A stretch of 64,000 nucleotides of DNA from the NCBI GenBank assembly GCA_022641835.1, contig CP048718.1:248001-312000 (forward strand), written 5' to 3'. Positions 1-31,664 of the stretch are shown here, in pieces. This DNA comes from Petasospora fabianii (Eukaryota; Ascomycota; Saccharomycetes; Phaffomycetales; Wickerhamomycetaceae). The notes below the pieces were generated by a model. That model saw nothing but the letters and a program-made list of their open reading frames with translations. It was not told the origin of the DNA and did no database searches. The translations under genes and the position numbers were made by a program. Position 1 is the first letter of the stretch; each line of letters begins with the position of its first letter.

Positions 1-1974
1 CAGTAGTAGTGAAGACATCTGTTCAGCACGAAGCATCATGTACTTATCAAACTGATTCAAACATTTGTTCACCTCCTGTGTCCAAAAGTTCGACTTGGAG
101 TAATCGGCATTGATAATGGATCCAGCAGTCAACTCAATCACCTCTTGGAAACCTAAGACGACAATGTTTGGCTTAAACTTATCACCAATTGGGTATAGCC
201 ATTCAGATAGATCTTCAACTCTATTAACACCGTTAACGTTATAAGTACCAGTAAAGACATTAATGGCATCATTTGTAGTGAATTGACTCTTCATTTGGGC
301 GATCTGTTCTGTAACATAATCAGTGATTGGATCATATAACAACACGGGGGATTGACCAGCGAGTCTTCCAAGTAAGAGATCAATCACGTTCTGTTTCCCC
401 TTATCCATGAAGTTGTTAATGTACATTCTTGAAACGGATTTAGTAGCATCAGATAATGCACCAGCAAAACTCATCTTACCACTTCTAGAGAATGAAGATT
501 TGAGAGCATTTGTACCAGTGTAGATTTGTGAGATTTGATCACCATTATCGGCCCAAAGTGTGTTATGTTTACTAAAGAAGTCACTTTCTTGAGCAATTCT
601 TTCATCATGATCCTTAAGGAAGATTGTGAGGGCAAAATTGGAGATGAATTGTTGAACTAAGTTAGTTCTATCAAGACAGTCAAGACAGTTTGTTCTAAAG
701 ACACCTGATTGTTCAGATGTTGTCTTATGAAGTTCCACATCATAACTGAAATAACCAAACTCGAAGAGTGACTCTTTGATCTTACCAAAGATCTTATTAG
801 CCCCTGAAAACCCCTTATCAGAAGTTTCTCTATGGAAATCGAAATCTGTCATGTAAAGATCAGGTGTTCCCTGGTTAACCAATCTTTCAAAATGACTTCT
901 GTATCTCTTAGACAATGGCAACTCTGATGTCTTAGTACTTAACAGATTGACAATGTTTATAGCACCATAGTTATTGGAAAGTTTTTCGAAATGCTTATCA
1001 AAGATTGGTTGTGATGCCTCTTCAGATCTTGTGATTTGAACTTTTGGATTGATGAGTGCAGTGTCTTGTTCCCAAAACACAGGGACACTACCTCTGATCT
1101 GTGTATATGCATAACACATCTTTTGACAGTAAAGAATAGTTTCAGTTTCAACGAAATTAGCGACATTAGCTTCATCATCAATACCTCTTGAGTTGAACCT
1201 TGTACCGGCACGTTTCCAACTCTGTCTCGAAATGACAGTCATAGCAACTTTTTCTCTTCCCATGAAAGTCTGAAATGTCTCTGCAAACCCTCTAATGACA
1301 ACTGTAAGGAATCCTTCATCATCTAGTTTCTCTTTCATTTGGTCTTCGAGCTTATCTCTAAAGTCCACCATCTCTTGAAGCATGAACAAGTTCCACATGT
1401 ACTCATCATTGTAGTTATCAAAACTGAGTGAATGACTACCAACTCCTCTGGATTGGAGGGTCCTAGTGAGATCAAAATCCGAAGAGTAGTAGAATCCACC
1501 ATTGTTCAAAAGTTTCTTCAAGTCATGACATGGATGCTTAGCGTATGATTGTGTGTTGGTACCAACTGATGAAGTCTCCTGATAATCCCCCGGTGTAGAA
1601 GTCTCAGAGTCGGGCATTATAGGGTATCCATTACTGTCTAACTCGACAAAATCCCAAGTAGATCTCGTTAAAGAGTAAAAATCAACTCCCATGATCTTAT
1701 TAACAGATTCGTTGGGCACTGGAGCAGCAACTTTCCTAGCAGCAGTGATACAACAGATGAACATATCACCTTCAACACCAATAAGTCCAACAAACCCATG
1801 TATCTCACAATCATTGAGTACTTTATAAGACTTTAGATCAACATCTTCTCGTGGGAGGAATTCAATAGCACACCGATGTGAACCTGGTCTATTACCAATG
1901 GCCCTAAACAGAAGAACAAATGACTTGGACACCAGCGCAAGCGTGCGCGGGTTCTCATGGACAAGTAGTTTCAT
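1..1974 (-). CDS. Synaptojanin-like inositol polyphosphate phosphatase, partial (C-terminus off left edge)
   Basis: The reading frame begins at ATG 1974 and stays open to base 1, giving the first 658 residues. The N-terminus (MKLLVHENPRTLALVS) and the following 500 residues read as a Sac1 phosphoinositide phosphatase domain. The Cx5R(T/S) catalytic motif CLDCLDRT is intact near residues 430-437. From about residue 574 an inositol 5-phosphatase domain starts (TGTYNVNG, GFQEVIEL) and runs off the window. Sac1 followed by 5-phosphatase is the Inp51/52/53 architecture. Known family: Inp52/53 have a working Sac domain, whereas Inp51 does not, so an INP52/INP53-type enzyme is inferred. It would hydrolyse PI(4,5)P2 and other phosphoinositides at endocytic and Golgi/endosomal membranes. 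In-frame stop TAA lies upstream of the ATG with no other ATG between. It is divergent from YAF9 with a 421 bp shared promoter. Confidence 0.93.
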   Translation of the reverse strand, partial: MKLLVHENPRTLALVSKSFVLLFRAIGNRPGSHRCAIEFLPREDVDLKSYKVLNDCEIHGFVGLIGVEGDMFICCITAARKVAAPVPNESVNKIMGVDFYSLTRSTWDFVELDSNGYPIMPDSETSTPGDYQETSSVGTNTQSYAKHPCHDLKKLLNNGGFYYSSDFDLTRTLQSRGVGSHSLSFDNYNDEYMWNLFMLQEMVDFRDKLEDQMKEKLDDEGFLTVVIRGFAETFQTFMGREKVAMTVISRQSWKRAGTRFNSRGIDDEANVANFVETETILYCQKMCYAYTQIRGSVPVFWEQDTALINPKVQITRSEEASQPIFDKHFEKLSNNYGAINIVNLLSTKTSELPLSKRYRSHFERLVNQGTPDLYMTDFDFHRETSDKGFSGANKIFGKIKESLFEFGYFSYDVELHKTTSEQSGVFRTNCLDCLDRTNLVQQFISNFALTIFLKDHDERIAQESDFFSKHNTLWADNGDQISQIYTGTNALKSSFSRSGKMSFAGALSDATKSVSRMYINNFMDKGKQNVIDLLLGRLAGQSPVLLYDPITDYVTEQIAQMKSQFTTNDAINVFTGTYNVNGVNRVEDLSEWLYPIGDKFKPNIVVLGFQEVIELTAGSIINADYSKSNFWTQEVNKCLNQFDKYMMLRAEQMSSLLL

Positions 1975-2395
1975 CCTTGTAGCCTCAACTGATAAGTCAA
2001 TGTACTTGTCGTATGACTCCAATAGCTTAGAGAGTTAAAGGTTTAAACCAACGGCTCTATCGGTGATGTTTTGACGTTAGAGTTTAACTTGGGAGTTCTC
2101 TGGGCAGAAACACCTGGACACCATCACCCATATAGTCGTTTATACTAATATGATGGTAAATATAGAGATATTTATCATATGAATTGATATAAAGGTATAT
2201 TACTCCTTATTGAAGTATTCTAATGCTTATAGACCCATATAATACAATATACATAAGTGTTTATATGGATAATATATACATCATATCATCTCCAAACCTC
2301 GCGATCTCGAAAAGACATAATAGACTTGGACTTGAACCTCTTCATCAAAACATCAGTCCAAAGACACTAGAACAAACAGACTAAGACAGAGACTA
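1975..2395. promoter_or_regulatory. Divergent promoter, synaptojanin / YAF9
   Basis: No gene is seen in this 421 bp. It holds a Rap1-like element ACACCTGGACACC at 2110-2122 and a strongly AT-rich stretch (2145-2285) with several TATA-like runs. The same AACACCTGGACACC string recurs, on the other strand, in the RPS7/RKI1 promoter at 33056-33069. Assignment of the factor is inference from consensus only. Confidence 0.5.
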
Positions 2396-3081
2396 ATGGC
2401 AGTAGGAGCAACTAACAGACGTGTGAAAGTGAGTAGTAACATGGTCTCTTGACCTACAAGACCCACAACTAACACTAGCAGACATTATCCATCTCTCGTC
2501 CCATCATTTGGGGTAATACAGCCAAACCATTTGGTGAAGTACGCCCCGCTGGGGCACCAGATGAGCATACACATACATGGACGGTGTTTGTGCGTGGTCC
2601 TAATGGAGAAGATCTATCATATTTCATCAAGAAGGTTGTGTTTAAGTTACATGAGACGTATCCGAACTCAACACGTTCTATTGAGACTCCACCATTTGAA
2701 GTGACAGAGACAGGTTGGGGTGAATTTGAGATTGGTATTAAGATCTTTTTCATTCCAGAATCGACTGATAAGAACATCTCGATGTATCATCATTTGAGAT
2801 TACATCCTTATGGACATCCACAGGGCACGGAAATCACAGAAGAGATGAGGAACGTTGAGAGCATTCAATATGATGAGATCGTTTTCAATGAACCAACGGA
2901 GGAACTATTACAAATTATGACTAAGAAGCCAGGTAATATCATTGCAAAGACTAAAAAGGAGTCAAAATTCTCTAAAGAGACTGAAAATGAAGAACTTGCG
3001 AGATTGGATCATGGATTGAAGAAAGTCAATCTAGAGATTGAAAAACTTAAGAAGAAGGTTCAATCTGCAACGTCGGCTTAA
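2396..3081 (+). CDS. YAF9: YEATS-domain protein Yaf9 (SWR1/NuA4 subunit), one intron
   Basis: Exon 1 is 2396-2428 (MAVGATNRRVK) and exon 2 is 2482-3081, giving 210 residues. The 53 nt intron (2429-2481) has GTGAGT, AACTAAC and CAG. Joining the exons restores the family start RRVKTLSISRPIIWGNTA, which matches S. cerevisiae Yaf9 RIKTLSVSRPIIYGNTA. The YEATS fold follows (HTHTWTVFVRGP, FKLHETYPNS, GWGEFEI), and the C-terminus is a coiled coil (residues about 175-208). Yaf9 reads acetylated/crotonylated histone H3 and is shared by SWR1 (H2A.Z deposition) and NuA4. The acceptor region reads TAGCAG, so splicing at either AG is in frame and would add or drop one Gln. It is convergent with the next gene, with 111 bp between stops. 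Confidence 0.94.
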
Positions 3082-3192
3082 TATGATAACTGAATGTGTG
3101 TTTAGCTACGGTTTGTGTGTAATCAGTGGGTGGTCGTGAATAAAGTCGTTAATATAAATAAAACAAGAAGAAGAGGATGATAAGCAAAGTGC

Positions 3193-3798
3193 TCAATGAA
3201 CCATCTGTTCACCAGCAGCCATCTCTTCTAATACATCTTTGATCAGTTCGGTAACTGGTCTATCAATTAGTGATCTGCCATTATACCGTAGTAGCACCTC
3301 GTGTCTTTTATTACCATGCTTGTCAAAGAACACCAACATGTCTCTTGGATAAACACCTCCACCAATTGGATCTCTTGCATTAAATTTCTTAGTAACAAGT
3401 GTACCGTTAATCAATGGGAACAGATATTCGTTATTCGTTAAGTTTGTAGAGGCACCAATGATCTCAGCATTGAAAGCTCTAGTTATAGTGCAATGATGAT
3501 CATTGATCTGTTCAAGATGATCCCTCATCACACCAAAGAAAACAAGTACAAGTGGTCTACCTTGTGATCTGTACTTCTTTCTCTCAATACCACGCGGTGT
3601 AACGAATTCAAGCACAGAGTCTTCAATTGCAACGTTCAAATCGTGTGTTTGATGTGGTAACCTAAGTTTCTTTGTAGGTGACTGTGGAGGGACCTCCATC
3701 TCCAACTCGGACTCGGAATATTGAGGAGACGGTAATGAAATGTTGGCAAAGTCATAACTCTCATCGTCAAAGTCGACGTATTCATTTGTTCTTTTCAT
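3193..3798 (-). CDS. Small protein with thioredoxin/peroxiredoxin-like C-terminal half, function unknown
   Basis: The first ATG in the frame is at 3798, giving 201 residues. The frame is open further upstream to 3978 but has no ATG, and that stretch contains a TATACATATAA element. Residues 1-75 are acidic, Ser/Pro-rich and probably disordered. Residues 80-195 resemble an AhpC/TSA (thioredoxin-like) layout: PLVLVFFG strand, AEIIGAST strand, FPLINGTLVTKKFNA, MLVFFDKHGNKRHEVLLRYN, then a terminal helix. The usual peroxidatic motif (PxxxTxxC) is not visible; the only cysteine in this half is in HHCTITRAF. I do not recognise a named orthologue. A non-catalytic thioredoxin-fold protein is an inference from strand order and would need structure prediction. 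Confidence 0.6.
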   Translation of the reverse strand: MKRTNEYVDFDDESYDFANISLPSPQYSESELEMEVPPQSPTKKLRLPHQTHDLNVAIEDSVLEFVTPRGIERKKYRSQGRPLVLVFFGVMRDHLEQINDHHCTITRAFNAEIIGASTNLTNNEYLFPLINGTLVTKKFNARDPIGGGVYPRDMLVFFDKHGNKRHEVLLRYNGRSLIDRPVTELIKDVLEEMAAGEQMVH

Positions 3799-4052
3799 TT
3801 TGGTGTATACAACTGGATATGACGCGTCTGTGACCTCTTCTCCTCTTATTGCTCTCCAACGTTGGTACTTATATGTATAACGCAATGGAGACTTCAAACA
3901 ACACCAACCACAAGTATTATCCCCCAAGGATGAATCAGCTAGTGCTGTGTAATTGTAAAGTCGATCAGGTAATAGCACTTAAAAGTGAATTTATGATCTT
4001 TCCATCTGTTAAAGATCAGTTAAACATTTAGTGCCCGGAGACGTCTCAAGAC

Positions 4053-4645: not shown

Positions 4646-5749
4646 ATGACGCTCAAGACGATATACATTGCTAGAGTATGTACCAGATTTGAACACTCTT
4701 CCATTACAGTTAACTAACATGGTTCTTTTTAGCACGGGTATCGCTCAAATTGGCTTCCACCACCACATCCGGAATCACCCACAGGGATCGATTCTGATCC
4801 ACCTTTAGCTGCCCATGGTGAAGACCAAGCGAAAGAACTTGCCCATTACATGTTATCGATTCAACCACAACCTGATTTGATCCTCAGTTCGCCCTTTTAT
4901 CGTTGTTTACAAACCGCTACACCCATCGCTGATCTTCTCGAGTGTGATATTGTACTTGAAAATGGTATAGGTGAATGGTATAAACCAGATAGACCAGTTA
5001 TTCCCAAACCAGCAGGGTTTGAATTGTTATCTCAGTTTTTCCCCAGATTAAGAGATACTTGGAAACCAACATCGGTACGCCCATCGGATAAAGGTGAAAC
5101 TGAGATTGATATCTTTGATAGATGTAAAAGATTCATTGAGGAATTCATACCAAAGTTTGAGAAAGAACACCCTGAAGCGGAGACTGTACTGTTAGTAACA
5201 CACGCTGCTGCAAAGATTGCCCTCGGTATGGCACTCATGGGGTTCTCTTCGGTTCGTGATACGTTGGATGATGAAGATACTCGTCTCCGTGCCGGTGCCT
5301 GTTCCTTGGATCAATACGTTCGTACTATCGATCCAAAGGGTGAGAAGGCCGATCAGTGGATCATTAAGATGAATGGAAGTACAGAGTTCCTTACAGATGG
5401 TGAAGAGATGCATTGGGATTTCTTAAATGGATTCGAAGCTGGAAGTGATGCTGATATTAAGGCTAGACAAGCAAAGGCTCAACAAATGGATGATAATGAA
5501 GAGTATCAGGACGTGTATGTCACTTTGGACATACCAGCTAATAACTTCAACACTAAGACGATCCCACCAACGGCAAAACTTCAAGTTAGTGGTCTTCATA
5601 CAGAGAAACCATTGTTTAAAGTTGATAATGAGGTTTACCAGGGCAGTTGGAAGAAACTTGTCGGAACAGAAGTCGCCTTCACAGATGACCTAGAGGAACG
5701 CTACAAGGCCACTGACCGTGTTCAGCTTGAAGATGTTACACCAAGCTGA
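4646..5749 (+). CDS. TFC7: TFIIIC tau55 subunit Tfc7, one intron
   Basis: Exon 1 is 4646-4675 (MTLKTIYIAR) and exon 2 is 4733-5749, giving 348 residues. The 57 nt intron (4676-4732) has GTATGT, AACTAAC and TTTTTAG. The join creates IARHGYRSNWLP, matching S. cerevisiae Tfc7, so the intron sits inside the RHG signature of the histidine-phosphatase fold. The N-terminal domain continues with SSPFYRCLQTA, GIGEWYKP, GETEIDIFDR and LLVTHAAAKIALG. The C-terminal part (residues about 215-348) matches the Tfc7 beta-barrel that pairs with tau95, with SGLHTEKPLFKVDNEVYQGSWKKLVGTEVAF. Tfc7 belongs to the tauA module that binds the A box of tRNA genes. It is shorter than S. cerevisiae Tfc7 (435 residues) because the acidic tail is missing. 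A CTG codon at 5189-5191 encodes a conserved Leu. Confidence 0.95.
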
Positions 5750-25858: not shown

Positions 25859-27052
25859 TTAAGCAGAAGCCTCAACAGACTCTGCTGTCTTCTCCTCAGT
25901 TTGGGTTGGTGTTGCTTCAGCAGGCTCAGCAACGGTAGAAGTCTCATTCTTGGTCTCACTCTTGGTCTCATCATTGTGTTTTTTCTCCTGTGGGATGTCA
26001 AATGTCACATTCTTACCATCACCGTAGTCCTTAATGTTCTCATCACCTTCCTCAAGAGCCTTTCTGAATTGAGACATATCAAAGGCAATCTCTGTGTCAT
26101 CACCACCTTCTTCAACGTAAACCTTGTTAAGATACTTCTCTTCAAAGATCTGTCTTCCTGTACGCTTTGCCTTTTCCTTGTTCTTCTTCTCATCATTGAG
26201 TCTTTTGATCTCATTTTGTTGTTTCCATTTGGCAAATGATTCCATTGTGATTGGCGTAAGGTTTGTCTTTGGCAACTTGTCTCTCTCTGTCTCGATGAAC
26301 TCTTCGAGGGAGATCTTTGGTCTGGCATCTGCATCCATCTTCTCCAATCTCTTTTGTTCTTTCGTCTTCAACACGAATCCTTCTGGTAAGGAATGCTTGT
26401 ACATACATTGATCACCATTGTTTGGACACACCCAGAACCAACCGTATTTACCATCTTCAACGGCTTCAATGAAGAACTTACAAACTTTGTCTGTTGTAGT
26501 TCTGGCGTTTCCATGCTTAGATTTGATAACGTCTCTAAGCTTACTCTCATCCCAGTTATCCATCGTATCTGCCTCCTTTTGCTTTCTGTCATCGGTGTAC
26601 AAATCCTTCTTAGTAGCTCTTTTACCAATGTTCAAGTCGTGTGAGAATTTACACTTGGCACCTCTTGTACAGTGACCATCTCTAAAGTTGATACATAGAA
26701 CGGACTTTGGATCAACACCAAATGGAACTTTTTGCTCTGCTCGTTGAGCTAGAAGTAAAGCAGCTTCTTTCTTAGCTTGTTCAGCAGCCTTCTTCTCTTC
26801 AGCACGACGTTTGGCCATGGCAAGCTCCTTCTTGGCCTGTGCACTACTCATTGTAGTAGACTCAATCTCACGAACGAGCTTTTGGACCTTTGTAGATTTG
26901 TTTTTCTATAATCAATTTGTTAGTTTGATTCTAAGTTAGTTCAGCTCATCAATACATACGTTCTTCATACCAAAGGTCTTGTCCTCCACCTTTTTCTTCA
27001 CATCGGCCTTAGCCTTTGGCTTCTGATTCTTCTGATTCTTCTTTGGCGGCAT
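25859..27052 (-). CDS. TMA46: CCCH zinc-finger translation-machinery protein Tma46, one intron
   Basis: Exon 1 is 27052-26960 (MPPKKNQKNQKPKAK to GMKN) and exon 2 is 26905-25859, giving 379 residues. The 54 nt intron (26906-26959) has GTATGT, AACTAAC and TATAG. The join gives KTFGMKNKNKSTKVQK, matching S. cerevisiae Tma46 KTFGMKNKNRSTKVQK. Two CCCH fingers are seen: CINFRDGHCTRGAKCKFSH and CKFFIEAVEDGKYGWFWVC with CMYKH. The DFRP-type signature DYGDG is near the C-terminus. Tma46 binds the GTPase Rbg1 (DRG1 homologue) and associates with ribosomes. The tail (residues about 335-379) is a Glu/Thr/Ala-rich extension. A 19 A run at 27173-27191 upstream acts as a dT tract on the coding strand. Confidence 0.96.
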
Positions 27053-27285: not shown

Positions 27286-29088
27286 TTATATAGTCTTTAT
27301 GGTCTTAGTTAGCTTAAGAGCCATGCTTGGACTCACCTTTGAGACCAAATCTATATAGCATCGTTGTCTTTTTTTCACAGAACGCTCTAATGAGTGGCCT
27401 AGCATTATCACTAGATCTCCATCTTGAAACACTGAAGCACTCTTAATGTCTCTTCTTAGTATAAAATCCATATTGTTATCAAGCGAAGGTTGAACTGGAA
27501 TGATTGAGATCTTGATATTACCTGTATCTGCATCAATTTCTCTCTTTATCACTCCAAGTGCAGATTGACACCCTTGAATAAGACACTCTTCTATCGACTC
27601 ATCATCTGCCTGTTTAGTTGATTGTGGTAGACGAGACATCAATTCTCTTGAGGCGAGTAAGACCCTCTTCTGTGTTGCAATTGAGACTGGAGATCTTCTG
27701 GTATGTGGGTTTTTTGATCTCTTGAATCCTTCAACAACGTTTAACAGAGATAAGATGTCGGATGTAGGTACAACTTGATCCTTATCAAACATTTGATCTT
27801 TAAGATATGATGAAAGAGTATGGGATCCAACTTGATGTATTAGTGAGATTAAGTCACACATTTGTTCGATGCAATTGCTGGATTCAATGGCAATGGTAAG
27901 AGATGTGTATAACATGAAAAACAGTGGATCGTATGGGAAATCGAAAGATCCAAGGATACGTGCAAGATTGGTGAATTCATAACTCTGTTTATCTGTAATC
28001 TTGATAAGCTTTAGATATAGAAGATTATCAATTGCAAGCTCCATTGTATCTGAAGAAGGTGGTTTCAAGAATAAGAGATCTTCGAATCTGATCTGGAATT
28101 TGATACATTGGACGATAAAGGGAATGATATAGTTGTTAGTGTCAAATCCCATATATCCAAAATCATCAAGGTCCTTAAGAGGTGACATGACAAAGTATTT
28201 TGATCCCTTTGATTGCATTATACTCATATTCTGATTGATACGATTGTTATTTGTAGGAACAACATCAAGTCTTTGGAAACCGTGTGGATCAAATCTCGTA
28301 ATCTCAATGAGACCAGAGTCAATGATATGTTTCACTTTATGAACAATGGGAACCAATGGAGTCGAGGATGTTGATATTAGAACCCTTTTCTGCCTCGTTG
28401 AGCCACGATTGGTGTATGAATCAAGATCAGTGATGATGGAGAAGTCCCTCATTGTCAAATGGTTTAGGATAGCTTGGTTAAGGGCCATCACATCATCTTT
28501 AGAAGCCATGAGTAAGAGAACGTCATATGGTTCATTGGTGTTATCGGTACTCCATAATCTTTGTAATGTATCGATCATACCACTTATGAGTTTGGTTGAT
28601 GATGTATTTGTCGTATGATAGATCTCAATCTCTGGTGAGGGTATAATGTCCACAATAGTCGTGTTCTCAAATGAATTAGCAAGATAATCTCTGTAAAACT
28701 CCATTTTGAAGTGTGACTTGAGTGGGATTATGATCTTAGACTTGGGTTTGATTGATATTGTACTGCTCTTTTGCAAAATTGAAAGACATAGATCTGAAGG
28801 TGTTGATCTATCATCAACACCATCTAAGATGATGAACTCAAACTGTTTGAAATCATTCGATTGTGACAAAGCATGGATAAAGGAATGATACTTCAATGAG
28901 AGTGATTGTTGATCTTCATCAAGTGTCAATTCATCACTTACAAGAACAAGCCTCGTCTCTTGTACTCGTTTGAGGAAATCTACAATGATGGCTGTAGAGA
29001 ACCCAGGTAGTATAACAACATCGTTTGTTGCAATTGCCTCAAGCACAAGTTCATGATTCTCCTCGAGCTGCTGTGCCCTTGTCAGCAT
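27286..29088 (-). CDS. DEAH-box helicase-like protein without catalytic motifs (pseudo-helicase)
   Basis: The first ATG is 29088 (MLTRAQQLEENHELVL), giving 600 residues. The whole length can be laid onto a DEAH/RHA helicase such as Prp43. Motif I GETGSGKT is shortened to LPGFSTA. Motif II DEAHER(S/T) is DGVDDRST. Motif III SAT is missing (IIIPLKSHF). Motif V TNIAETS is ISTSSTPLV. The QRAGRAGR of motif VI is NQNMSIMQ. In contrast, structural parts persist: VKHIIDSGLIEITRFDPHG, the winged-helix segment DLLFLKPPSSDTMELAIDNLLYL, the ratchet-type TNLARILGSFDFPYDPLFFML, DILSLLNVVEGFK, and an OB-like C-terminus. ATP binding and hydrolysis are therefore unlikely (inference). I know of no S. cerevisiae counterpart. 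No internal stop or frameshift is present, so it appears to be an expressed, selected gene and not a pseudogene. Confidence 0.8.
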   Translation of the reverse strand: MLTRAQQLEENHELVLEAIATNDVVILPGFSTAIIVDFLKRVQETRLVLVSDELTLDEDQQSLSLKYHSFIHALSQSNDFKQFEFIILDGVDDRSTPSDLCLSILQKSSTISIKPKSKIIIPLKSHFKMEFYRDYLANSFENTTIVDIIPSPEIEIYHTTNTSSTKLISGMIDTLQRLWSTDNTNEPYDVLLLMASKDDVMALNQAILNHLTMRDFSIITDLDSYTNRGSTRQKRVLISTSSTPLVPIVHKVKHIIDSGLIEITRFDPHGFQRLDVVPTNNNRINQNMSIMQSKGSKYFVMSPLKDLDDFGYMGFDTNNYIIPFIVQCIKFQIRFEDLLFLKPPSSDTMELAIDNLLYLKLIKITDKQSYEFTNLARILGSFDFPYDPLFFMLYTSLTIAIESSNCIEQMCDLISLIHQVGSHTLSSYLKDQMFDKDQVVPTSDILSLLNVVEGFKRSKNPHTRRSPVSIATQKRVLLASRELMSRLPQSTKQADDESIEECLIQGCQSALGVIKREIDADTGNIKISIIPVQPSLDNNMDFILRRDIKSASVFQDGDLVIMLGHSLERSVKKRQRCYIDLVSKVSPSMALKLTKTIKTI

Positions 29089-29633
29089 CGCATATCCTGC
29101 AGATGGAACCACAATGACGTATAATGTGTCAATAAACAGCTCCGGTCCGGTCCATAAACTTGATCATTGATCATTGATCATTGAGCATTATGTTAAGAGA
29201 GGGTAAATTTTCGGTAGGTCCACGCTAGAGAAAGGATCAATCATAGTTAAGTGTTACTTGGGAAACAACAACAAACAAGCATGAAGTAAGCTTTAACTGA
29301 GTGTGCCATACTATGATATGATATATCCATTAAACTATAAGAAACATAATAACTAAGAAGAATAGATATATGACTGCTGGGTAATCAAAAGTCTCTGATT
29401 GGTTCGCGAAACGCTAACGCCGGTCCGGCCCGGTTTCGGCGGCCGGTGACTTCATCACAGTCATCGCCGTCTAAATTGGAAAAGATTGAAATACTTGGAG
29501 ATTCTTTGTCTGTTACACTTATACTTTACACGGTACACTTCATACTTTACACAGTTGATCTTTCTGTTGAGTGTTACTCTTTCATATCGGTTATTGTGAT
29601 ACACAAGAAAACTATCATACAGAAGAGCCCATC
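29089..29633. promoter_or_regulatory. Divergent promoter, pseudo-helicase / LYS4
   Basis: 545 bp. CCGGTCCGG occurs at 29142-29150 and again at 29420-29428, the second within a CGG/CCG-dense stretch to 29447. CGCGAAA is at 29405-29411. A 7 bp repeat TGATCAT is present three times at 29161-29181. CGG/CCG pairs are the usual half-sites of Zn2Cys6 factors; Lys14 controls LYS genes in S. cerevisiae, but its TCCRNYGGA consensus is not clearly present. Confidence 0.45.
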
Positions 29634-31664
29634 ATGAGCCTACGTCGAGGATTCTCCACATCGACACGCTGCCTTGCAGGCCAAAACTTGACGGAGAAGA
29701 TTGTTCAGAAGTATGCAGTCGGTTTACCACAGGGTAAAGTTGTTCAATCTGGTGATTATGTCTCCATTAAACCGGCACACTGTATGTCACATGACAACTC
29801 ATGGCCCGTTGCCCTTAAGTTTATGGGTCTTGGTGCAAAGGCAGTTAAGGATAACAGACAAGTTGTTATGACACTTGATCATGATGTTCAGAACAAGAGT
29901 GAAAAGAATTTGGAGAAATATCGTAACATTGAAAAATTTGCAGGTGAACAAGGCGTTGATTTCTATCCTGCTGGTCGTGGTATCGGTCATCAAATCATGA
30001 TTGAAGAAGGTTATGCATTCCCACTTAACCTTACCGTTGCATCCGATTCCCATTCAAACACATATGGTGGTATTGGTTCCCTCGGTACTCCAATCGTTAG
30101 AACAGATGCTGCTTCTATTTGGGCTACGGGTCAAACATGGTGGCAGATCCCACCAGTTGCTAAAGTTGAATTGAAAGGTCGTCTTCCAAAAGGTGTTACC
30201 GGTAAAGATGTGATTGTTGCCCTCTGTGGTGCTTTTAACAACGATGAAGTTCTCAATCATGCTATTGAATTTGTCGGTGATCACATCGATGAGCTCCCAG
30301 TTGATTACAGATTGACAATCGCCAACATGACTACTGAATGGGGTGCCCTCTCAGGTCTTTTCCCAGTTGATGAGACATTGATCAATTGGTACAAGAATAG
30401 ACTCGAAGTGTTACCACAACCACATCCTCGTGTTAACGAACAAACGGTTCAGAACTTGATTGATAATGCTATGGGTCCAGATAAAGATGCTTACTATGCT
30501 AAGCATTTGACACTTGATCTTGAATCGCTTTCCCCATACATCTCCGGTCCAAACTCTGTTAAGATCTCTAATTCTCTAGCTGATCTTTCTGCAAAGAACA
30601 TGAAAGTTAACAAGGCTTACCTTGTCTCTTGTACCAACTCTCGTCTCTCAGATATTAAGGCCGCTGCTGATGTTGTTAAGGGACATAAGGTTGCTGAAGG
30701 TGTTGAATTCTACATTGCTGCTGCTTCTTCTAACGTTCAAAAGGATGCTGAGGATATTGGTGCCTGGAATACTCTCTTAGAGGCCGGTGCTATCCCATTA
30801 CCAGCTGGTTGTGGTCCATGTATCGGTCTCGGTACTGGTCTCTTAAAGGAAGGTGAAATTGGAATCTCGGCAACCAACAGAAACTTTAAAGGTAGAATGG
30901 GTTCAAAGGATGCTCTTGCCTACTTGGCTTCACCAGAAGTTGTTGCTGCATCAGCTGTCTTGGGTAAGATTGGTGGTCCAGAAGAGATTGATGGTTCACC
31001 TGCTCATGGTGCTCAAGGTATTAAGAAAAGTATTACTATCCCACCAAAGCCAACTTCGACCGGTAATGATGCTGCATCTTCAGGTGTTGAAGTTCTTGAA
31101 GGATTCCCAAAATCCATTGAAGGTGAATTGATCCTTTGTGATGCTGATAACATCAATACGGATGGTATCTATCCAGGTAAGTACACTTATCAAGATGATG
31201 TTCCAAGAGAGAAAATGGCCGAGGTTTGTATGGAGAACTATGATGCAGAGTTTGGTCAAAAGACAGGTCCTGGTGACATTATCATCTCTGGTTTCAATTT
31301 TGGTACCGGTTCATCTAGAGAACAAGCTGCTACTGCCATCTTGGCTCGTGATATGAAACTTGTTGTTGCTGGTTCATTTGGTAACATCTTTTCAAGAAAT
31401 TCGATCAATAATGCTTTATTGACATTGGAGATTCCAGATCTTATTAACATGTTGAGAGATAAGTATAAAGATGCCCCTGAAGAGTTGACGAGACGTACTG
31501 GTTGGTTCTTAAGATGGGATGTTGATTCCGCTACAGTTACCGTTAGAGATGGTAAAGATGGTGAGATTGTTCTTCAACAAAAAGTTGGTGAACTTGGTAC
31601 AAACTTGCAAGATATCATTATTAAAGGTGGTCTTGAAGGTTGGGTTAGATCTGAGTTGGCTTAG
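29634..31664 (+). CDS. LYS4: Homoaconitase, mitochondrial
   Basis: The ATG at 29634 ([22 protein letters not shown]) gives 676 residues; S. cerevisiae Lys4 is 693. The first 15 residues are a typical mitochondrial presequence. The aconitase-superfamily core follows, with [4Fe-4S] ligand cysteines in [10 protein letters not shown] and GCGPCIGLG. Substrate-site sequences include [11 protein letters not shown] and the swivel-domain loop GSSREQAA. The sequence [26 protein letters not shown] starts the swivel domain and is a Lys4-type feature, not an Aco1-type one. It converts homocitrate to homoisocitrate in the alpha-aminoadipate pathway of lysine synthesis. Many codons end in T (GGT, GTT, GCT), indicating strong expression. 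It is convergent with RPS7 (256 bp). Confidence 0.96.

Follow-up and report, generated by a model that had tools for sequence, protein, structure and literature searches.

A DEAH-box helicase relative with replaced ATPase motifs and an intact reading frame in Petasospora fabianii

Introduction

Human DQX1 and DHX32 are relatives of the DEAH-box helicases in which the motifs are altered by point-like changes. Utp25/Def, a retained factor of the small subunit processome in yeast, is also helicase derived and has no working ATPase motifs; PMC9539457 describes this DEAD-box-like protein with two RecA domains as "the first fully validated pseudohelicase." DHX35/Gih35, known together with GPATCH1/Gpl1, has a DEAH core beyond the seven usual yeast DEAH proteins, and in PMC11958768, DHX35 is one of five helicases found in higher eukaryotes in addition to the eight conserved splicing helicases. 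Here, we analyzed a window of 64,000 nucleotides from the yeast Petasospora fabianii (assembly GCA_022641835.1, contig CP048718.1, positions 248,001 to 312,000) and describe a gene at 27286..29088 whose product resembles Prp43/DHX15 and Prp22/DHX8 in predicted domain order and in significant sequence similarity. Unlike in those helicases, none of motifs I, Ia, Ib, II, III, V, and VI is intact; the protein shares at most 22% identity with them and begins at the helicase core with no N-terminal extension. It also differs from DQX1 and DHX32 in that whole motif stretches are deleted. Among the papers listed by full-text searches of the open-access literature, none had a title or abstract that named a DEAH-type pseudohelicase from a yeast; the proteins called pseudohelicases in titles were Utp25 and Deinococcus PriA.

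It is very probable that the protein is a pseudohelicase, that is, a folded, selected, and catalytically dead DEAH relative. Our overall reading, with a probability of about 0.5, is that the gene derives from a duplicate and was kept as a noncatalytic scaffold or competitor. A DEAH core of full length but with no motor would reveal the helicase surfaces that matter apart from ATP and would offer a natural loss-of-motor control for the docking of cofactors and ribonucleoproteins (RNPs).

Results and Discussion

Similarity to DEAH helicases

The open reading frame (ORF) is read on the minus strand, which corrects the strand in an earlier note on this DNA, and has a putative ATG at 29088 and a TAA stop codon at 27288-27286 (600 amino acids [aa]). 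A profile of 13 DEAH proteins, 7 from the same genome and 6 copied from PDB alignments, matched the protein with 36.4 bits (E value of 5.3e-10). For comparison, the lowest E value among 24 other proteins of the window, drawn from its 26 other ORFs of at least 200 aa, was 1.5, and that among 500 shuffled sequences was 24. The comparison with DEAH families that the earlier note had called for gave a significant result. With a 7-protein DEAH profile, the E value was 6.4e-8, compared with 1.5 for the best of 200 shuffles. When PDB was searched by phmmer at E values up to 10 with a 608-aa version starting at GTG, two distinct sequences were found, both of C. thermophilum Prp22 (2.4e-6 and 4.3e-6), with the match spanning residues 76-459 in ATG numbering; no Prp43, DHX15, or DHX35 chain was among the matches. 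Against the paralogues of its own genome, BLASTP gave 1.4e-5 for Prp22 and 1.7e-5 for Prp43; the other paralogues listed had E values of at least 0.11. Judged from the sequence, the similarity to DEAH helicases exceeds chance. A search of a viral-contig collection with the same protein gave no match.

The 13-protein profile aligned residues 75-236, covering part of RecA1 and RecA2, and residues 339-460 of the winged-helix and ratchet domains, the latter being the strongest part of the match. The claim that the C-terminal segments still align therefore holds for the winged-helix and ratchet domains, whereas for the OB region it rests on a pairwise alignment and a low-confidence model.

Loss of the catalytic motifs

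All five ATPase motifs noted as replaced (I, II, III, V, and VI) proved to be so, and the quoted strings were located on the minus strand by alignment. Motif I (Walker A; residues 27-33, 28990..29010) reads LPGFSTA, with the P-loop GSGK missing. At motif II (residues 89-96, 28801..28824), DGVDDRST stands for DEAHERT and the catalytic Glu is replaced by Gly, while at the position of motif III (residues 124-127, 28708..28719), KSHF stands for SATL. Motif V (residues 238-246, 28351..28377), elsewhere of the STNIAETSL type, is ISTSSTPLV, and in motif VI (residues 285-292, 28213..28236), NQNMSIMQ replaces the QRAGRAGR type. In aligned columns, the motifs read GFS----TAI (I, versus GETGSGKTTQ), S---FIHA (Ib), DGVDDR (II), KSHF (III), LLLMASKDDV (IV), STSSTPLVPIV (V), and QNMSIM-Q (VI), and motif Ia is wholly absent. 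The signatures of an active DEAH-box helicase are accordingly missing: there is no GxGK(S/T) P-loop, DEAH has become DGVD, and QRxGRxGR has lost its arginine finger, since the equivalent of Arg435 is Gln.

PMC9860317 gives nine residues of C. thermophilum Prp43 that contact the nucleotide. Two of them are kept (Thr126 and Arg162), four are deleted (Gly122, Gly124, Lys125, and Phe360), and three are changed (Thr127 to Ala, Asp391 to His, and Arg435 to Gln); Glu219 is also changed, to Gly. An enzyme that still binds nucleotide through an unusual site could make use of the kept Thr126 and adenine-stacking Arg162 equivalents, but with three P-loop residues and Phe360 deleted and these four residues substituted, such an activity is extremely improbable.

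The RNA contacts were compared by using those given in PMC5262380, in which the RecA1 hook-turn Arg-Phe is required for translocation. Arg153 and this hook-turn pair (Arg180/Phe181) are deleted; Thr195, Arg201, Glu316, Gly349, Asn382, Lys403, Ser555, and Arg562 are changed, although several of these act via the main chain; and Thr381 of motif V and Tyr348 of the hook loop are kept. As far as a sequence allows, ATP-driven translocase activity is ruled out. A folded DEAH relic might have some other role, for example, as a motorless RNA-binding protein. The beta-hairpin region does align (4/21 identical and 10 similar), and Thr381 and Tyr348 would fit such a role; however, the deleted Arg153 and hook turn and the changes at six further contacts (Thr195, Arg201, Asn382, Lys403, Ser555, and Arg562) make it rather unlikely.

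Predicted fold and selectivity of the loss

Alignment and a structure model predicted the order RecA1-RecA2-winged helix-ratchet-OB. The RecA1-like domain comprises residues 1-152 (28633..29088; alignment to 13 DEAH proteins and structure model), followed by a RecA2-like domain that includes the beta-hairpin (residues 153-313, 28150..28632; model and alignment). The winged-helix domain (residues 314-387, 27928..28149), supported by profile and alignment, is the best-conserved part, and the model and alignment further place a ratchet, or helix-bundle, domain at residues 388-491 (27616..27927) and an OB-fold region of low model confidence at residues 492-600 (27289..27615), all on the minus strand. 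Identity to Saccharomyces cerevisiae Prp43 was 31/174 in RecA1, 31/185 in RecA2, 20/68 in the winged helix, 17/113 in the ratchet, and 14/81 in the OB region. In RecA1, the stretch from motif I to motif II covers residues 29 to 89, whereas in C. thermophilum Prp43 it covers residues 119 to 218; the shortening amounts to about 39 residues.

With the alignment to the 13 active-type DEAH proteins as the conservation reference, columns invariant in all 13 were kept in 6/39 cases within motifs and in 17/45 outside them (Fisher P = 0.028). For columns alike in at least 11 of the 13, the counts were 6/55 and 32/109 (P = 0.010). Always-hydrophobic columns remained hydrophobic in 80 of 98 cases, and 26 of 201 mostly polar columns were hydrophobic. 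On these sequence comparisons, the loss appears selective for the motifs only in part. The highest identity to any of the 13 proteins is 22% over 529 columns (S. cerevisiae Prp43), RecA1 is shortened, and 28 of the 45 invariant columns outside the motifs are changed; the idea of a helicase that decayed only at its catalytic sites was therefore too strong.

Coding status

The earlier description of an uninterrupted frame was correct, with 0 internal stops across the 600 codons. At the stop-triplet frequency of the window's unlisted DNA (0.0579), 35 stops would be expected, and the chance of finding none is 3e-16; the other five frames at the locus contain 216 stops in 3,001 codons. The in-frame coding score of 0.039 per codon exceeded those of the five other frames and of the 11 unlisted stretches longer than 500 bp, although it is low for a gene, with only 4 of 24 neighbours lower, these 24 training genes having been scored on themselves. 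The reference treated as intergenic was all DNA outside 25 listed ORFs; it still includes two ORFs of more than 200 aa (3193-3978 and 4850-5749) and small exons, so the coding figures are approximate. Because the protein has diverged from its relatives to the point of saturation, the greater part of this divergence must presumably have arisen while the frame was under constraint.

Several observations weigh against a folded and selected protein. A Pfam scan at E values up to 10 returned 0 families. The fold model was built on 45 bacterial HrpA-type rows, an input that favours a helicase fold; HrpA and HrpB are themselves active-type helicases, and their rank as relatives is partly built in through these rows. 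Without an alignment, the prediction fails (predicted local distance difference test [pLDDT] score of 34.8 and predicted template modelling score of 0.20) and is of no use for the fold; its secondary structure matches that of the first model at 73.5%. The OB region is poorly modelled, with block pLDDT values of 28-52 over residues 511-580, and the counts of hydrophobic and motif columns depend on an alignment biased toward matches. In addition, synonymous codon usage gives a score close to zero (0.013), below the 0.033 of one antisense frame, which would be compatible with a weakly expressed gene. Missing catalytic motifs, a shortened RecA1, the weak synonymous signal, and an end branch with a length of about 10 changes per column would all suit a pseudogene or a gene at a late stage of decay, but 600 open codons where about 35 stops are expected and the retained hydrophobic pattern make this very improbable.

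Paralogues and parentage

Searches of the whole genome (12,335,623 bases in 16 contigs) with OB_NTP_bind and HA2_N recovered seven DEAH genes, with longest ORFs of 734, 791, 833, 893, 1,108, 1,270, and 1,419 aa; the pseudohelicase was not among them. All seven show motifs I, II, III, and VI in the alignment, one of them with DEVH. For Prp43 and Prp22, the names are backed by sequence comparison and a tree, whereas Prp16, Prp2, Dhr1, Dhr2, and YLR419W are tentative assignments from length and sequence. We take the seven to correspond to the seven of S. cerevisiae, and the pseudohelicase gene is thus an addition to the set. It is single copy, as an own-genome search scored two candidates and the one match was the gene itself.

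The methods disagreed on the parent subfamily, which is best described as Prp43/Prp22/DHX35-like. With two-sequence profiles, HMMER gave 27.6 bits for Prp43, 16.3 for Prp22, and 12.5 for DHX35. By hhalign, two-sequence sets without own-genome rows gave P values of 1.4e-4 for DHX35, 1.2e-3 for Prp43, and 0.041 for Prp22, whereas with own-genome rows, Prp43 (4.8e-5) and Prp22 (5.9e-5) were both ahead of DHX35. In the tree, the pseudohelicase stood beside Prp43 with a support of 39/0. The approximately unbiased (AU) test disfavoured a clade with DHX35 (P = 0.0115) or Dhr2 (P = 0.0196) but not one with Prp22 (0.163), Prp16 (0.52), Prp2 (0.175), or Dhr1 plus YLR419W (0.083); these placements are to be read with the long end branch in mind.

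The gene might instead be a decayed DHX35/Gih35 orthologue retained as an inactive spliceosome subunit. None of the seven own DEAH genes resembles DHX35, which ranked first in hhalign without own-genome rows and also had the top BLAST score among nine proteins, though by 0.4 bits (C. thermophilum DHX35, 46.6 bits; own Prp22, 46.2; own Prp43, 45.8). However, DHX35 keeps its motifs, and neither HMMER, which places Prp43 first, nor the AU test supports the link; hhalign with own-genome rows, the best tree, and the PDB search, which listed only C. thermophilum Prp22 at E values up to 10, likewise speak against it. DUF1604, which we take to be the GPATCH1 domain, gave no match in the genome, nor did GCFC and TIP_N, in searches that had no positive control genome and so do not demonstrate absence. 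In general, we consider a DHX35 origin of this kind unlikely.

G-patch sites and a proposed role

The brace-helix, brace-loop, and inhibitory-patch sites of S. cerevisiae Prp43 were taken from PMC11584650. The brace-helix site on the winged helix, which includes 28042..28077 (minus strand), is 6/15 identical and 9/15 similar; the brace-loop site on RecA2 is 1/9 identical and mostly deleted; and the inhibitory-patch strand is kept at 4/13 positions and a second cluster at 2/11. Genome-wide, five G-patch genes were found, four with the G-patch model and one with G-patch_2, which are presumably Sqs1-, Pxr1-, Cmg1-, and Tma23-like and Spp2-like, respectively.

These data bear on the suggestion that the pseudohelicase is a decoy that binds G-patch activators and diverts them from Prp43 or Prp2. 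Candidate partners exist and the brace-helix site is partly kept, but the brace-loop site is largely gone; the sequence agrees with the suggestion only by half. The kept stretch, of the PPxxxT type, is common to Prp22 and other paralogues and may be structural only; the comparison therefore cannot separate function from structure. From these sequence matches, a full G-patch brace appears unlikely and binding via the winged-helix side possible, and a decoy role has only a small chance of being correct. Since the brace sites are only partly kept and the kept stretch is shared, a general scaffold or competitor is favoured.

Under this scaffold or competitor reading, a DEAH helicase core of the Prp43/Prp22/DHX35 kind would have been duplicated, and the duplicate would have become unable to bind or hydrolyse ATP and to grip RNA. 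Selection would then have retained it as a folded protein that docks, above all through its winged-helix/ratchet half, on a protein or RNP partner of one of the seven active DEAH helicases, in splicing or ribosome assembly. With the motifs destroyed, the frame intact, and the fold pattern kept, a structural role is likely; the particular mechanism is offered more tentatively, at slightly less than an even chance. The initial view of the locus thus survives for DEAH descent, motif loss, open frame, and fold pattern but not for a loss confined to catalytic sites.

A more far-reaching version, in which a complete DEAH core became a spliceosome or pre-ribosome subunit that works without ATP and might take over part of the Prp43 recruitment or discard system, seems quite improbable. 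Its context is that Ntr1/Spp382 was not recognised genome-wide, the Spp382 G-patch query giving only the Sqs1-like gene, and that the own Prp43 ends early. The failure to recognise Ntr1/Spp382 could reflect introns, divergence, or gaps.

Neighbourhood and other observations

Upstream of the ATG, 25 more codons are open, with a GTG at 29112 and no ATG among them. No PAC or RRPE motif was found within 500 bp upstream of the gene, which is uninformative because an 8-base PAC or RRPE is also missing from all other 24 genes. CTG is decoded as Leu, the residues opposite CTG in DEAH columns being Leu (108), Ile (39), Val (34), Met (24), Ser (10), Ala (10), and others. The gene is not Utp25, as it has no Pfam match and Utp25_C was found elsewhere, at 2898751-2899320 of the contig labelled C1 (E value of 3.3e-75).

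The divergently read neighbour at 29571-31664 (plus strand) is presumably aconitase-like. A gene that we take to be TMA46-like starts about 233 bp downstream of the pseudohelicase and is read in the same direction; in the region 26851-27052 (minus strand), it has an apparent short 5' intron, with GTATGT at 26959, that follows a first exon beginning near 27052.

The own Prp43 (734 aa; 890-3091, minus strand, of its extracted stretch on the contig labelled C2) terminates directly behind its last OB strand (RTVHSVKGDELKKYSFFSDYKF). It is without the W-xx-E-xAP-type C terminus found in the paralogue Prp22, and no downstream frame obviously extends it. A relative of Prp43 is also encoded by a 287-kb viral contig of IMG/VR, with 34% identity in the best segment (query residues 102-558).
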